The translations under genes were made by a program, and so were the position numbers. DNA of 64,000 nucleotides from Stenotrophomonas sp. WZN-1 (GTDB taxonomy: Bacteria; Pseudomonadota; Gammaproteobacteria; Xanthomonadales; Xanthomonadaceae), in contig NZ_CP021768.1 in the NCBI RefSeq assembly GCF_002192255.1, positions 3,428,001-3,492,000 on the forward strand, read 5' to 3'. Below the pieces are notes generated by a model. It made no database searches. It saw only the letters and a program-made list of their open reading frames with translations, and had not been told where the DNA came from. Shown here in pieces: positions 18,383-22,025 of the stretch. Position 1 is the first letter of the stretch. Each line of letters opens with the position of its first letter.

Positions 18383-18847
18383 TCAACGGCGATCCAGTTC
18401 GATCACGGCCTGGCAGGCACGGAGCTGGTCGTCGGCATCGCGTCCGATTCGAACAAGCGCTGCCGCAACCTCTGCTCGTAACTGGGCGCCCGCATCACGT
18501 TCGCCGGTGCGGGCGGCGGCTTCGGACAGACGGCCGGTGTGGCACGCGGCGAGGTCGTCGCGCAGGCGGAGAGTGCCAGCACGCAGGGCAGCCACCACAT
18601 CAGCATCCACCTCGGCCGCGCGCTCACGATCTTGTTCATGTTGCTCCCCCAATGAGGCCATCGCCTCGCTCCGTTCTTCCTGTTCCCGGCGCAACCGTTG
18701 TTCGGACAGAACCGCGCCGGCGTGACGTGCCGCATCGGCCCGCACCATTGCCAGATCACTGCGATCACCGCGCCAGCGCCAGCCGGCCATGAACATCAGC
18801 AGCGACCACAGCAGCAGCGACGCCATCACCATCAACATGCGTGGCAT
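18383..18847 (-). CDS. Phage Rz-like inner-membrane spanin
   Basis: A 154-aa protein with an N-terminal membrane segment (about 5-22), then a long charged helix rich in Glu, Arg, Gln and Ala ('EQRLRREQEERSEAMASLGEQHEQDRE' region). This is the i-spanin topology: one anchor and a periplasmic coiled coil. It follows the endolysin with a 3-base gap and contains a second gene, Rz1, in another frame, the classic Rz/Rz1 layout. With Rz1 it would fuse the inner and outer membranes in the last step of phage lysis. Confidence 0.85.
   Translation of the reverse strand: MPRMLMVMASLLLWSLLMFMAGWRWRGDRSDLAMVRADAARHAGAVLSEQRLRREQEERSEAMASLGEQHEQDRERAAEVDADVVAALRAGTLRLRDDLAACHTGRLSEAAARTGERDAGAQLRAEVAAALVRIGRDADDQLRACQAVIELDRR
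18403..18639 (-). CDS. Phage Rz1-like outer-membrane lipoprotein spanin, nested inside Rz
   Basis: A 78-aa product wholly inside the Rz gene in a different reading frame. The start at 18639 has a strong GGGGAG 4 bases upstream. The signal peptide ends in the lipobox 'LALSAC' (Cys26). The mature part is short and Pro-rich ('CPKPPPAPA'), as in o-spanins. Nesting, lipobox and Pro content together make the assignment solid despite the small size. Confidence 0.85.
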   Translation of the reverse strand: MNKIVSARPRWMLMWWLPCVLALSACATTSPRATPAVCPKPPPAPANVMRAPSYEQRLRQRLFESDAMPTTSSVPARP

Positions 18848-18850
18848 ATG

Positions 18851-19387
18851 TCACTGCTCCGCCAGGCAACGCGCATGGCGCTGCTGCTGGCGCTCCCACA
18901 CGCCCCAGCACACGGTGTTGGGACGGCCATCGATGCGGGCCGAACAGTCATAGCCCCCTGCCCGCTTCCACAGCAGCAACGCATCGCAGGCCTGGCGATA
19001 CTCACCCTGCAGCAGATGCCGGCGCATTGACGACGCGCGCCAGTTGCCGATGCCGTACTGGTAGAGGAAGTCGACATAGACGTCATACTCGCCCTGGCTG
19101 AGCGCCACGCCTGGCAGCGACGCGCGGAACTGCCCTTCCTCCCTGGCCAGATGGGCCTGCACGGTATGCAGCGCGCGTACCGGCGTGGTGCGGTCGCCCA
19201 TCCTCACCGGGGTGCCATCCTCGCGAACGGTCGAGCCGAAGCCATAGGTTGGTCGGTCATTGCGCGTCGGTACCACTGCGGCGTCGGTGTATCCCTCGCG
19301 GTCAACGATGGCGATCAGGCCCGCAGCACTCAGCGCAAGCGCGGCGACCAGGCTGCGCACCGGCAATGTACTGCTGGGCCGGCTCAT
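18851..19387 (-). CDS. Phage endolysin, GH24 lysozyme with N-terminal anchor (SAR-like)
   Basis: The product is 178 aa. The lysozyme region shows 'REGYTDAAV' and 'RPTYGFGSTV', with Glu31 as catalytic acid and Asp44/Thr47 as probable partners, then 'QGEYDVYVDFLYQYGIGNW', typical of GH24 muramidases. A weakly hydrophobic Ala/Leu segment (about 12-28) directly before the active site looks like a signal-arrest-release sequence, so the enzyme may be held in the membrane and freed on depolarisation. Its start overlaps the holin stop (ATGA type). Confidence 0.9.
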   Translation of the reverse strand: MSRPSSTLPVRSLVAALALSAAGLIAIVDREGYTDAAVVPTRNDRPTYGFGSTVREDGTPVRMGDRTTPVRALHTVQAHLAREEGQFRASLPGVALSQGEYDVYVDFLYQYGIGNWRASSMRRHLLQGEYRQACDALLLWKRAGGYDCSARIDGRPNTVCWGVWERQQQRHARCLAEQ

Positions 19388-19581
19388 TCGCGCTCCCTGC
19401 GGCGCCATTCGCGCAGCCAGCGCCAGCCCAGATAGGCAATCTGCGCCGCCAGGTAGATGATGGTGAGGACCACGACTAGGCGGTCCAGGGTGATGCCGGC
19501 TGCAAGCGCACCGGCGACGGTGACCGGCGGCGCCGACTTGATGGCCGCCGCGCCGGCCGTACTGATGATTTCTTCTTTCAT
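19384..19581 (-). CDS. Small phage holin-like membrane protein
   Basis: The product is 65 aa. A weakly hydrophobic Ala/Gly/Val stretch (about 8-30) precedes one clear membrane segment (about 35-54, 'VVVLTIIYLAAQIAYLGW'), and the tail is very basic ('RWLREWRRRERE'). Size, charged tail and position directly before an endolysin match a class II-like or pinholin type. The start at 19581 follows an AGGACC site. No function other than holin is suggested by context. Confidence 0.75.
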   Translation of the reverse strand: MKEEIISTAGAAAIKSAPPVTVAGALAAGITLDRLVVVLTIIYLAAQIAYLGWRWLREWRRRERE

Positions 19582-19706
19582 GATGGGTCCTGGAGGGAAT
19601 GCAGGCCGCGTCGCATCGACATGGCCCGAAGAGATGCCCGCCCCGCTGCCGGCTCGGCACGAGGGTTGTTCCGGTCGGGAGGCGGGCGAAAGATCGGTTC
19701 CGCCGC

Positions 19707-20135
19707 TCATGCGGCCTGGGCGATACCCTCCATCCAACCGCGCACGCGCTGGAAGCCAAGTTCGACCAGGTTGAGGTAATGCCGGTTGGATACCGGTCGC
19801 TGCCCGCTGTTGGCCAGCAGCAGATTCGCCGTTTCGAATCGTTCGACCTTGCGTCGGCCACGGCCGCAGTAGTAGCCGCGCAGCGCACAGGCCATCGCCA
19901 CGTTGTCACGCGCGACCGCCGTGATGATGTCTTCGATCTGCTGCGCCAGCTGATCGGTTTCCAGAGGCTTGTAGCCCTGGGCCCGCCCCGGCATGTCACC
20001 ACGATGCTCGATCAGCACCGCCAGCAGGTTGCGCGACTGGAAGCCGAGGTATTCGCAGTCCCGATGCAGCGCATATTCGCCGCCCCAGTGCTCCAGGCGG
20101 CTGCGGACATACTCACCGAACGTATCAAGCTGCAT
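19707..20135 (-). CDS. Phage regulatory protein, possibly a Q-like late regulator
   Basis: The product is 142 aa. The start at 20135 has a perfect AAGGAGAAG upstream. The protein is helical and basic in the middle ('ALRGYYCGRGRRKVERFETA') and ends in a putative DNA-binding helix region ('SNRHYLNLVELGFQRVRGWM'). Position between a Cro-like gene and the lysis genes is where lambdoid phages keep Q. The Q call is inferred from synteny, not from a recognised motif. It overlaps the Cro-like gene by 11 bases and is followed by about 125 bases before the holin, where a Q-controlled terminator could lie. Confidence 0.45.
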   Translation of the reverse strand: MQLDTFGEYVRSRLEHWGGEYALHRDCEYLGFQSRNLLAVLIEHRGDMPGRAQGYKPLETDQLAQQIEDIITAVARDNVAMACALRGYYCGRGRRKVERFETANLLLANSGQRPVSNRHYLNLVELGFQRVRGWMEGIAQAA

Positions 20136-20385
20136 GGGGGGCTTCTCCTTTGAGGGACGACGGGGCCGGACCGAACACATCCGGGCGCAGGGATTCGCGG
20201 CGCACGACGCCCGCAGTGGCCAGCTCGATGCGGCGGCACAGTCGCGCGCCGGGCAGCTTGTGGCCGCGGGCGATCATGTAGAGGGTCCGCAGTGCGCAAC
20301 CGGTCTGGTGGGCCAGGCGGCGCATGACGGGGCAGCTGGGGGTGCCGTAGCCCCCTTGGGAGATGGCGTAGTCGATGAGGTTCAT
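20125..20385 (-). CDS. Cro/YdaS-like phage repressor or antitoxin
   Basis: An 86-aa protein with a helix-turn-helix-like core 'VMRRLAHQTGCALRTLYMIARGHKLPGARLCRRIELAT' (about 20-57), the pattern of Cro/YdaS proteins. It is the first gene of the minus-strand lysis transcript and faces the repressor-like gene across an operator-bearing gap of 85 bases. The ribosome site is weak. Its role would be to bind the TTACC-type operators. Confidence 0.7.
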   Translation of the reverse strand: MNLIDYAISQGGYGTPSCPVMRRLAHQTGCALRTLYMIARGHKLPGARLCRRIELATAGVVRRESLRPDVFGPAPSSLKGEAPHAA

Positions 20386-20393
20386 GGGCCACA

Positions 20394-20436
20394 CATTACC
20401 GTCAAGGTAATGTGCAGTCAATACCGTTTTGGTCAT
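20394..20436. promoter_or_regulatory. Tandem operators of the phage-type switch
   Basis: The first dyad at 20394-20412 is CATTACC-GTCAA-GGTAATG, a perfect 7-bp repeat with a 5-base spacer. The second at 20422-20436 is TACC-GTTTT-GGT(C)A with the same spacing. Their centres lie about 25 bases apart. A further half-site, ATTGGTAATG, lies at 20444-20453. They fill the gap between the divergent Cro-like and repressor-like genes. Confidence 0.7.
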
Positions 20437-20470
20437 TTGCTGGATTGGTAATGCAGCGCACCATCTACAG

Positions 20471-20977
20471 ATGGACGCCAGTACTGCTCGCACCCTCAAC
20501 ATGCGCCTTCGCGTGGCCGCCGCCGGTGGCCCGGCCGAATGGGCCCGCCTGTTCGGTGGCACCCGCTGGGCGCAGCCCCAGGTCAGCCAGTGGATTTCCG
20601 AGAGCAACCCGAAGAGCATCGGCCATCGTCTTGCGCGCGATCTTGAATCAGTGATGCAGCTTCCACATGGAACGCTGGATCGCGTCGATCAGGACGGAGA
20701 CGTGTCGCTTCAGTCTCAATCTACGGGACTGGATTTCGCGAAAATGAGCGCTGCGGTCAAGGTGCTTTCGCACTACCTGGAGCTGGTCGGCGATCCACCG
20801 GAATGGATCTACGATCCCGTGCTGCTGGAGACCGCATTCATGGTCGTGGACGAGTTCGGTCAGCCCTCTGCGCCGGACAATGTGCTCGACCTGACGAAGC
20901 TTCTGGCAAGACGGATCAGGGAGGCAAAGGATGACTCACACGCGACTCGAGGAGCTCGCACAGCGGTTGGCCGCTAG
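20471..20977 (+). CDS. Phage-type HTH repressor without a cleavage domain
   Basis: The product is 168 aa. The N-terminus contains a helix-turn-helix-like stretch ('EWARLFGGTRWAQPQVSQWI', about 23-42). The C-terminal half ('MSAAVKVLSHYLELVGDPPEW' onwards) is not the S24 peptidase of CI/LexA proteins: I see no Ser/Lys dyad region or Ala-Gly cleavage site. The start at 20471 has little ribosome site and may be read from a leaderless or near-leaderless mRNA; a TTG at 20429 is the only longer alternative. It is divergent from the Cro-like gene across the operators. Confidence 0.65.
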   Translation: MDASTARTLNMRLRVAAAGGPAEWARLFGGTRWAQPQVSQWISESNPKSIGHRLARDLESVMQLPHGTLDRVDQDGDVSLQSQSTGLDFAKMSAAVKVLSHYLELVGDPPEWIYDPVLLETAFMVVDEFGQPSAPDNVLDLTKLLARRIREAKDDSHATRGARTAVGR

Positions 20978-21299
20978 GACCCAGGAACTGCGCGGCGAGC
21001 GCACCCCGGCCCCGGCATTGCGGGTGGTGGCGGGAGACGCGCATGGGGTTCGCGGGGAGAGGCGCATGGACGCGATCATGCGCGAGTGGCATTGCCGCAT
21101 GATCCGCAACGTACGCCGGCGCTGGGGCGAGCCCATGCAGCATGTGATCGACCAGGCCTGTTGCGGTGTGGTCAACATCGAGCAGCTCGCCGACGACGCA
21201 CTGATCCAGCTGCACAAGGACATGGAGCGCGCCGAGGAGTGCATCCGCGAAGGCATTTCCTTCCATGACGCCGGGCTGCTGCGCGCGCATTACGGCTGA
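20931..21299 (+). CDS. Small hypothetical protein linked to the phage switch
   Basis: A 122-aa helical protein, Arg- and Glu-rich, with three Cys/His-containing helices ('EWHCRMIRNVRRRWG', 'IDQACCGVVNIEQLAD', 'RAEECIREG'). It overlaps the end of the repressor-like gene by 47 bases and has a GGAGG ribosome site, so it is translated with it. I do not recognise it. A terminator follows at 21308. Confidence 0.6.
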   Translation: MTHTRLEELAQRLAARTQELRGERTPAPALRVVAGDAHGVRGERRMDAIMREWHCRMIRNVRRRWGEPMQHVIDQACCGVVNIEQLADDALIQLHKDMERAEECIREGISFHDAGLLRAHYG

Positions 21300-21307
21300 A
21301 AGAGGCC

Positions 21308-21345
21308 CTGGCCGGTCGGCGAGGACCGGCCAGAGGTGAATTTTA
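21308..21345 (+). terminator. Rho-independent terminator of the repressor operon
   Basis: CTGGCCGGTC and GACCGGCCAG form a 10-bp perfect stem with a 6-base loop (21308-21333), followed after a few bases by TTTT. It ends the plus-strand transcript of the phage-type module. Confidence 0.75.
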
Positions 21346-21368
21346 GTTACCAATTATTCCCAAATAAC

Positions 21369-21382
21369 TACCTTTAAGGTAA
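21369..21382. promoter_or_regulatory. Third copy of the TACC-N5-GGTA operator
   Basis: TACC-TTTAA-GGTAA lies about 70 bases before the gene at 21453, in an AT-rich promoter-like stretch. Half-site and spacer length match the operators at 20394 and 20422. A lone TTACC lies at 21347-21351. Confidence 0.55.
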
Positions 21383-21452
21383 TTGCAAAGCTGTACCCGA
21401 GGCGGTTGATACGCCTCGCCCTCACCGCCAGACCCACAAGGAAGTACACATC

Positions 21453-21797
21453 ATGCTGAGCGCCTTGATTGCTACCGTTCTCGCGGCCGCAGCGCCTGCG
21501 GTACCTGCGGCCGAGGCTGCATCGGCGCGCTACGCCGATTGCCTGCTGGGCCACCTGCAGGCGGGAATGTCCGACCAGACCGCGCAGCTGGTGCAGCAGG
21601 CATGCGCTGCCAAGTACCCGCAGGAGCGTGCCGATGCGGCGATTCTGGAAATGGAGGCGGGCAAGAGGCGCGAGGCCGAGTTCCAGCGGATCAACGCTGA
21701 TGCGGTGAAGTCCGCCAACGAAGCGGCTGCCGCCGCCGCACAACAGGCCAACCAGGACGCTGCGGCAACATGGGAAGATGTTTCGCGCGGGAAGTGA
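21453..21797 (+). CDS. Small exported Ala-rich protein next to the phage-type module
   Basis: A 114-aa protein with an AAGGAAG ribosome site and an N-terminal signal peptide ('LIATVLAAAAPAVPAAEA'). The mature part is helical and has two cysteines ('YADCLLGHL' and 'QQACAAKY') that could form a disulphide, then an Ala/Gln/Asn-rich tail. An operator of the module lies in front, so it may be under the same switch. No family recognised. Confidence 0.6.
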   Translation: MLSALIATVLAAAAPAVPAAEAASARYADCLLGHLQAGMSDQTAQLVQQACAAKYPQERADAAILEMEAGKRREAEFQRINADAVKSANEAAAAAAQQANQDAAATWEDVSRGK

Positions 21798-21949: not shown

Positions 21950-22025
21950 TGGTGGGCCGTGATGGATTCGAACCATCGACCAAAAGATTAAAAGTCTTCT
22001 GCTCTACCGACTGAGCTAACGGCCC
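21950..22025 (-). tRNA. tRNA-Lys, anticodon TTT
   Basis: 76 bases including an encoded CCA (21950-21952). The acceptor stem is GGGCCGT/ACGGCCC. The D stem is GCTC/GAGC. The anticodon stem GAAGA/TCTTT holds loop CTTTTAA, so the anticodon is TTT. The T stem GATGG/CCATC holds TTCGAAT. All pairs fit. The 3' end points toward the phage-type module. Confidence 0.97.

Follow-up and report, generated by a model that had tools for sequence, protein, structure and literature searches.

Stenotrophomonas sp. WZN-1 carries, to the left of a tRNA-Lys gene, a small cassette of phage-type control and lysis genes, which we call the module and which is the subject of this analysis. The window, i.e., the whole stretch of DNA that was analyzed, comprises 64,000 nucleotides (G000:C1:3428001-3492000) of a 4.51-Mb single-contig genome (G000), where the module spans 3446.4-3449.4 kb as an intact unit of about 3 kb with its own operators (Table 1). 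An earlier note on this DNA had read here a nested Rz/Rz1 pair, a GH24 endolysin resembling the signal-arrest-release (SAR) type, a holin, a late regulator and a Cro-like gene. Family scans confirmed all of these, and together with the list of open reading frames (ORFs) they show that every module gene is open, present and in the order described. The N-terminus of the endolysin is hydrophobic and SAR-like (judged by eye), and its residues 31-178 share 56% identity with the BcepIL02 "phage SAR endolysin". The endolysin query has a single match in the genome at E<=0.01, in a search that covered this one class of lysis enzyme. As read from the ORFs, there is no complete prophage at the module locus of this genome, since virion, packaging and integration genes are missing from the locus.

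Table 1. Features of the module and its right flank, with positions in the window and the observations behind each name.
Feature	Position	Strand	Matches and remarks
Rz-like i-spanin	18383-18847	-	phrog_2466 E 7e-23
Rz1-like o-spanin lipoprotein	18403-18639	-	nested in Rz, other frame; phrog_3198 E 8e-7; lipobox LSAC by eye
GH24 endolysin	18851-19387	-	PF00959 E 7e-17; phrog_7 E 5e-27
Holin	19384-19581	-	phrog_920 E 5e-20
Putative Q-like late antiterminator gene	19707-20132	-	49% full-length identity to annotated putative Q proteins
Cro-like DNA-binding protein	20125-20385	-	YdaS-like PF15943 1.3e-6; phrog_35 1.2e-7
oR-like operator region	20388-20452		between cro and repressor; largely invariant in 7/7 module genomes
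Repressor	20471-20977	+	phrog_12107 E 3e-18; no Pfam family
Repressor partner gene	20931-21299	+	phrog_27415 E 1e-30
oL-like operator array	21340-21384		right of partner gene; TTACC-like half-sites
tRNA-Lys	21950-22025	-	right of module

The control half of the module consists of the repressor, its partner gene and the Cro-like gene. The Pfam scan matched no family in the repressor and thus no LexA/S24-type peptidase domain; PF00717 is carried by two distant relatives which share about half the length of the repressor. Three equal-scoring matches to its C-terminal half lie on separate contigs of one genome (G346:C1:11883, C3:10307, C4:20895), perhaps as replicons or repeated prophages. The partner gene is strongly conserved in its C-terminal half (Table 1; L112-L125) and is a candidate for an inducing or co-repressor component. 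Scanning the module for consensus promoters and terminators gave nothing, no DNA-damage box of the TTAG-N6-TACT type is found in it, and both of its CTG-N10-CAG matches fall within genes.

The divergent arrangement of the repressor and a small gene across operators, as proposed in the earlier note, holds, and a second operator array to the right of the partner gene can be added to it. The operator pattern WACC-N5-GGTMA has five matches in the window compared to 0.54 expected. Four of the five are inside the module; as one palindromic site among them is counted on both strands, they represent sites at 20397, 20422 and 21369. For comparison, all viral contigs with a relative of the repressor except L113, L117 and L120 were used (12 of 15), and the central oR site ATACC-N5-GGTCA was found in seven of them (L112, L114-L116, L118, L122 and L126). 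Operator pairs to the right of the partner gene also occur in L114-L116, L118 and L122; none were seen in L119, L121 and L123-L126, and L112 is cut off. In the genomes carrying the module, the half-sites of this right-hand array are preserved in 7/7, while the surrounding sequence is unconserved. Because such sites recur in viral contigs, the array is best read as oL. Both oR-like and oL-like operators are therefore kept in the module. Across the whole genome, the pattern gave 47 hits, compared to 35 with the reversed pattern, and a stricter pattern gave none. Three sites within 1 kb are found at the module alone; two other pairs are 0.6 and 1.4 kb apart, in contexts which were not inspected. 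A regulon addressed through the repressor operators was rejected on these grounds.

This switch has relatives in viral contigs. IMG/VR holds twenty contigs with a relative of the repressor, and five of these (L107-L111) carry the module itself at the extreme contig end. Among the other fifteen, the partner gene lies behind the repressor in 13 and cro lies opposite in all 15. The holin, where within reach, is found 5.6-7.2 kb beyond cro, and in L121 and L123 a Q-like match lies about 5.1-5.2 kb beyond it. As the Cro-like and Q-like genes of the module overlap by 8 bases, the segment between cro and Q is gone. Judged from its genes, the module is a compacted lambdoid switch; its viral relatives share the parts but are longer by about 5 kb in the cro-Q interval.

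The Q-like protein shares 49% full-length identity with a "putative antitermination protein Q" in two Cylindrospermopsis phage records. Q-like PHROGs are matched weakly, by 5, 3 and 2 of 28 family members, and a match to the PA0613 family is faint (E 0.011, 15.9 bits compared to a cut-off of 100). No Pfam Q family was matched, and a solved-structure search with the Q family gave no useful PDB match. Its putative identification as Q follows from the 49% identity, the weak PHROG matches and, above all, an element which stands behind the gene in viral contigs.

This leader element is about 80 bp long, reads as a promoter plus a terminator, and lies at the start of two tail operons located far from the module. 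It is composed of TTGAC, a 17-bp spacer and TAnnnT, followed by a 10-bp hairpin and a T-run. All ten hairpin positions are paired in 35 of 36 copies, in two copies both partners of a pair are changed, and folding of three copies compared to shuffles gave z values of -5.0 to -6.4. The promoter pattern failed in L151 and L155 and caught another place in L143, yet the alignment shows the L143 promoter. A profile built from 8 copies, searched over 211 loci (2.28 Mb), hit 23 of the 24 viral contigs described below. Over 277 loci (3.52 Mb) it gave 41 hits at E<=1e-5, of which 37 are distinct and 29 lie outside the profile-building set. The distinct hits are distributed over tail operon 1 (7), tail operon 2 (5), the position before the holin (1), viral contigs (23) and a prophage of genome G362 (1). 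Zero hits were obtained in reversed sequence, and likewise in 20-kb stretches around the tail protein L (tail-L) genes of 8 module-less genomes. A DNA search of the WZN-1 genome (E<=1) found the element only twice, at operon 1 and at 3151346-3151432.

In viral contigs the element accompanies Q. A relative of the Q-like protein is present in 29 IMG/VR contigs, five of which are the module itself, with no element, and the other 24 have 62-76% identity. In 23 of these 24 contigs the element lies behind Q on the same strand, at a distance of 34-1378 bp; the remaining contig breaks off 3 bp past the gene. An Rz-like match follows further downstream in 20 of the 23. This is the arrangement of lambda-type Q control, with a promoter and an immediate terminator behind Q and ahead of the late genes. 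One module genome, G362, has an extra copy between Q and the holin, with 84% identity over 77 bp to its own tail copy; the position between Q and holin is the late-promoter position of lambdoid phages. A further copy in G362 was observed within the tail region of another prophage, at a second tail-L locus (L205:11832-11906). By inference from these positions, the product of the Q-like gene would be a late antiterminator acting on the element that precedes each of the two tail operons.

Tail operon 1 (G000:C1:275.7-291.7 kb) is of the lambda type and consists of tail genes only. It contains the one match to the tail-L family in the genome (285177-285791). The host genes on its two sides, named by eye, are a CDF/OsmC pair and a gene for a SulP transporter. 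The gene order is head-tail adaptor, head closure, tail terminator, tube (PF08813), a small tape-measure-family gene, tape measure, M, four tandem fibre genes, L, K, I, J and two small genes. K combines JAB with NlpC/P60, a usual tail-tip peptidase. No lysis, capsid or terminase family was found among the 17 proteins scanned, which do not include an ORF near 278.1-278.6 kb that is placed as if by a frameshift. By eye, the ORF lists of the surrounding 60 kb show no capsid, portal, terminase or integrase; a genome-wide search for capsid and terminase was not made. The fibre genes differ among genomes, as if fibres were swapped. In the tandem fibre array (L188:5105-9952; orthologues in L193-L196, L198 and L199), both number and sequence seem variable among the seven genomes.

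Tail operon 2 (G000:C1:3138.2-3151.4 kb) is unlike operon 1. Its genes occupy positions 3151199 to 3138164, read in descending order, with rimO and a DLH-family gene as neighbours (flanks named by eye). They are tube (phrog_158), tail assembly chaperone, tape measure, M-like, L-like, a gene which takes the place of K but matches no family, and a tip protein. The latter (L214:7164-15452) has 2762 residues, compared to 1162 for J of operon 1. No lysis, capsid or terminase family was found among the 7 proteins scanned (the tube protein in part), and inspection by eye of the ORFs listed for the surrounding 30 kb revealed neither capsid nor portal, terminase or integrase genes. With no PF04984 match to a contractile sheath in the genome, an R-type tailocin (R-type maltocin) was ruled out. 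The tube, tape measure, L, K, I and J and the missing sheath are instead features of the non-contractile, lambda-type tail of F-type tailocins. Such tailocins have lysis genes in the same cluster; here none were recognized in either operon, and the lysis genes are found in the unlinked module.

In a sample of 91 genomes of the genus, one per species, the endolysin query and the repressor match 15 genomes each. Both are present at high identity (endolysin >=85%, repressor 79-100%) in seven, i.e., G000, G324, G331 (EA1), G334 (D457), G314, G368 and G362, and the remaining eight endolysin matches have 41-74% identity. A family sample of 297 genomes adds five endolysin matches outside the genus (39-43%). 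A scan of genome contigs returned EA1, D457 and one Novosphingobium metagenome-assembled genome at 53%, and the nearest protein clusters comprise 61-74 member sequences. In all seven genomes the module is located between the esterase genes and tRNA-Lys. The tail-L family occurs in 15/91 genomes, including these seven. Inspection of 17 tail-L stretches of other genomes (some genomes having two), in addition to that of WZN-1, showed that the module genomes have one orthologous operon 1 in common, at one site, while the eight other genomes hold different tails. The operon 1 tube protein is found in exactly the seven module carriers and in 0/84 others. The chance of such co-occurrence is 1/C(91,7), about 1e-10, before allowing for relatedness, a figure which overstates independence. 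The element precedes operon 1 in 7/7 genomes, and operon 2 in 5/5 genomes having that operon. Outside WZN-1, operon 2 and its element are present in G324 and D457 (80-100%), G314 (68-98%) and G362 (45-90%), and operon 2 was found in none of the five module-less genomes checked. Its site is empty in G327, G364, G370 and G312, where the flanking genes are likewise only about 0.2 kb apart as in EA1 and G368, and in G179 it holds 2.4 kb of other sequence with no tail match. The earlier note had considered that absence of the module from most relatives would speak against a domesticated device. The module is indeed absent from 84/91 genomes, yet the tube protein is absent there too.

The same note had proposed a check of conservation and selection, in which the module proved intact at one site in seven genomes, with low ratios of nonsynonymous to synonymous substitution rates (dN/dS). 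No stop codons interrupt the module genes in these genomes, although G362 has no recognizable Rz/Rz1 match. The dN/dS values are 0.067 for the Q-like gene, 0.088 for the endolysin, 0.105 for the partner gene, 0.115 for the holin, 0.158 for cro, 0.162 for the repressor and 0.34 for Rz; that of Rz1 (1.07) is not interpretable because of the overlapping frames. By comparison, the flanking esterases have 0.21-0.28, and queC, queE, ybgF and pal 0.06-0.13. Tail genes have 0.05-0.38, without stops in true reading frames. The L gene of operon 2 as first taken had stops in 2/5 sequences, and from an internal start (153 residues) it has none in 4/4 relatives. A tree of the flanking genes was built from those of 47 genomes that had >=3 of the 4 genes, 35 in number. 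One of its clades comprises four module genomes, and the remaining three are scattered, which gives four places in all.

Taken together, it is very probable that the module serves to control and release an F-type (non-contractile) tailocin split over three loci, with Q antiterminating in trans. The earlier note had suggested a release or altruistic-lysis device, perhaps serving a product encoded elsewhere, and had advised a search for a co-regulated tailocin. The release device is supported, as unlinked tail-only operons without recognized lysis genes carry the element which stands behind Q in viral contigs, while altruistic lysis as the only function is not needed. Following the lambda-type logic of Q, pR', tR', oR and oL, the repressor, probably bound at oR and oL, would hold pR off. 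Once repression is lifted, pR would transcribe cro and Q, and then the holin, endolysin and spanin genes in one run. Q would act in trans on the element before operons 1 and 2 and allow the polymerase to pass the terminator, so that tails could be assembled while the holin accumulates. With the timing set by the holin, endolysin and spanins would finally breach the envelope and let out the tails, which are presumably lethal to related competitors. The sequences show the parts and their conservation, the co-occurrence, and the common element with its position behind Q in viral contigs; from these we infer that Q binds and antiterminates in trans, and that the tails are released by lysis and kill.

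Several observations weigh against this interpretation. The seven module genomes are not independent, given the clade of four. The Q assignment depends on identity to proteins which are themselves putative Qs and on weak PHROG matches, with no match in Pfam or PDB. Six of the seven module genomes, including WZN-1, have no element before the holin, so their lysis genes must be read from pR. Furthermore, the more distant Q-like matches in L121 (56%) and L123 (35%) have no element hit. Operon 1 retains head-tail adaptor and closure genes, which a pure tailocin would seemingly not need. Finally, operon 2 is missing from EA1 and G368, where rimO and the DLH gene are separated by about 0.2 kb of empty site, and the check for operon 2 covered five of the 84 module-less genomes.

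A broader reading, which we hold with less confidence and still consider likely, is that the late-control circuit of a phage was turned into a regulon for release across the host genome, in which a single lambdoid locus for switching and lysis reaches unlinked cargo operons by way of the leader element of Q. Two unlike tail operons would be joined in this way, one of them optional among relatives, and in six genomes Q would be left with remote targets only. If true, any operon gaining the element would join the lysis programme.

The head-tail adaptor, head closure and tail terminator genes of operon 1 could also mean that the operons supply tails to other phages or capsids, as a helper, pirate or transfer particle, and form no free-standing weapon. 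We give this little credence, since operon 2 begins at the tube gene, no capsid, portal or terminase was seen by eye in the 60 kb around operon 1 or the 30 kb around operon 2, and the fibres of operon 1 vary among genomes as expected of a weapon. Just as improbable is a device for superinfection immunity or abortive infection, in which the repressor silences incoming phages of related type, or a phage that displaces it sets off premature lysis. The lysis arm is intact and the oR site shared with viral contigs makes cross-immunity plausible, but the leader element on two tail operons and the co-occurrence would be left unexplained; immunity may accompany the proposed function without competing with it as an explanation.

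Slightly less probable again is that the module is a slowly decaying cryptic prophage remnant, with the tail operons as unrelated remnants and the co-occurrence due to shared ancestry. The genes are of phage origin and stand in the same order in viral contigs, one clade holds four of the seven module genomes, and G362 lost or never had Rz/Rz1. However, decay is difficult to reconcile with stop-free genes in seven genomes, dN/dS of 0.07-0.16 for 6/8 module genes and the low values of the tail genes, or with the preserved operators and leader element. Likewise, shared ancestry does not account well for a tube protein confined to the module carriers when these stand at four places in the flank tree. 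The least probable is type-10-like release of secreted enzymes or vesicle formation with the tails incidental: a holin, endolysin and spanin set is present, and in S. maltophilia vesicles form through the action of the endolysin of the R-type maltocin (excerpt of PMC13393414), but the Q element is found at two tail operons only, it links no secreted enzyme to the module, and the operator pattern, with 47 genome-wide hits compared to 35 for the reversed pattern, has three sites within 1 kb at the module alone.

The neighbourhood of the module was also compared among genomes. The earlier note had reported no phage genes on either side, which is correct for this genome but not for D457 and G314, where a P2-like prophage of about 35 kb lies between the module and tRNA-Lys. 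The two are related and attach at tRNA-Lys beside the module (L047-L049 in D457, L050-L052 in G314), standing behind duplicates of the tRNA-Lys 3'-end of 93 or 50 bases. Both have a tail sheath match, and that of D457 has Ogr-, spanin- and integrase-like genes by eye. The duplicate which bounds each prophage lies between it and the module, and this places the module outside. The possibility, raised in the earlier note, that the module is the edge of a full prophage in sister strains was therefore rejected: an adjoining prophage is present, with the module beyond its attachment site, and the neighbouring phage sequence varies among L107-L111. In L108, L110 and L111 the phage sequence adjoining the module differs. 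The gene at 21453-21797 was likewise rejected as part of the switch, as 27 of 40 stretches from genomes without the module have a relative (45-60% identity) at this place, with esterase and tRNA-Lys on either side. It encodes a small exported-looking protein (VF_A0006-like, E 5e-5, below the cut-off) of a variable family resident at this site.

The proposed reading explains the purpose of an apparently orphan lysis cassette and suggests a rule for others, whose partners could be traced by scanning the genome with the leader element that belongs to the late regulator. It would provide an example of a phage antiterminator that was domesticated as a regulator and acts in trans. It also makes testable both the re-wiring of dismantled phage parts into bacterial weapons and the release of two different tailocins by one cell in one burst. 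In our searches of open-licence papers, no other tailocin with tails unlinked from control and lysis genes appeared, and neither did an F-type tailocin in this genus nor unlinked tail operons under a Q leader element.

Lambdoid phages have the order cI, cro, Q, holin, endolysin and Rz/Rz1, with oR, oL and pR'/tR'. The present system resembles them in the gene order of immunity and late control, in oR/oL and in a pR'/tR'-like element, whereas the module lacks the cro-Q segment and virion genes, and the late element stands before remote tail operons. The R-/F-pyocin locus of Pseudomonas aeruginosa has all parts in one cluster under PrtN/PrtR. Both systems combine headless phage-derived tails with a regulator and lysis genes (excerpt of PMC12090994), and the faint PA0613 match of the Q-like gene is a further similarity, but our parts lie in three places under a cI/Cro/Q-type switch. 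In Pseudomonas chlororaphis, two unlike tailocins share one lysis cassette within a single cluster (excerpt of PMC12090994). One cassette for two tailocins is also what we propose, although here they are unlinked and joined by a leader element and a putative trans-acting Q. Maltocin P28/S16 is a tailocin of S. maltophilia, the same bacterial group, and its endolysin lyses cells under DNA damage (excerpt of PMC13393414); it is R-type and in one cluster, whereas the WZN-1 tails are lambda-like and sheath-free. Rhizoviticin of Allorhizobium vitis is an F-type tailocin derived from chimeric prophage parts (excerpt of PMC10811719), and is non-contractile like the tails described here but confined to a single locus with two adjoining subregions. 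The gene transfer agent of Rhodobacter capsulatus (RcGTA) has its particle genes, endolysin/holin and regulator at separate loci (excerpt of PMC8601537). It is thus multilocus like the system in WZN-1, but it has heads, moves DNA and is regulated by GafA rather than by a phage-type Q.

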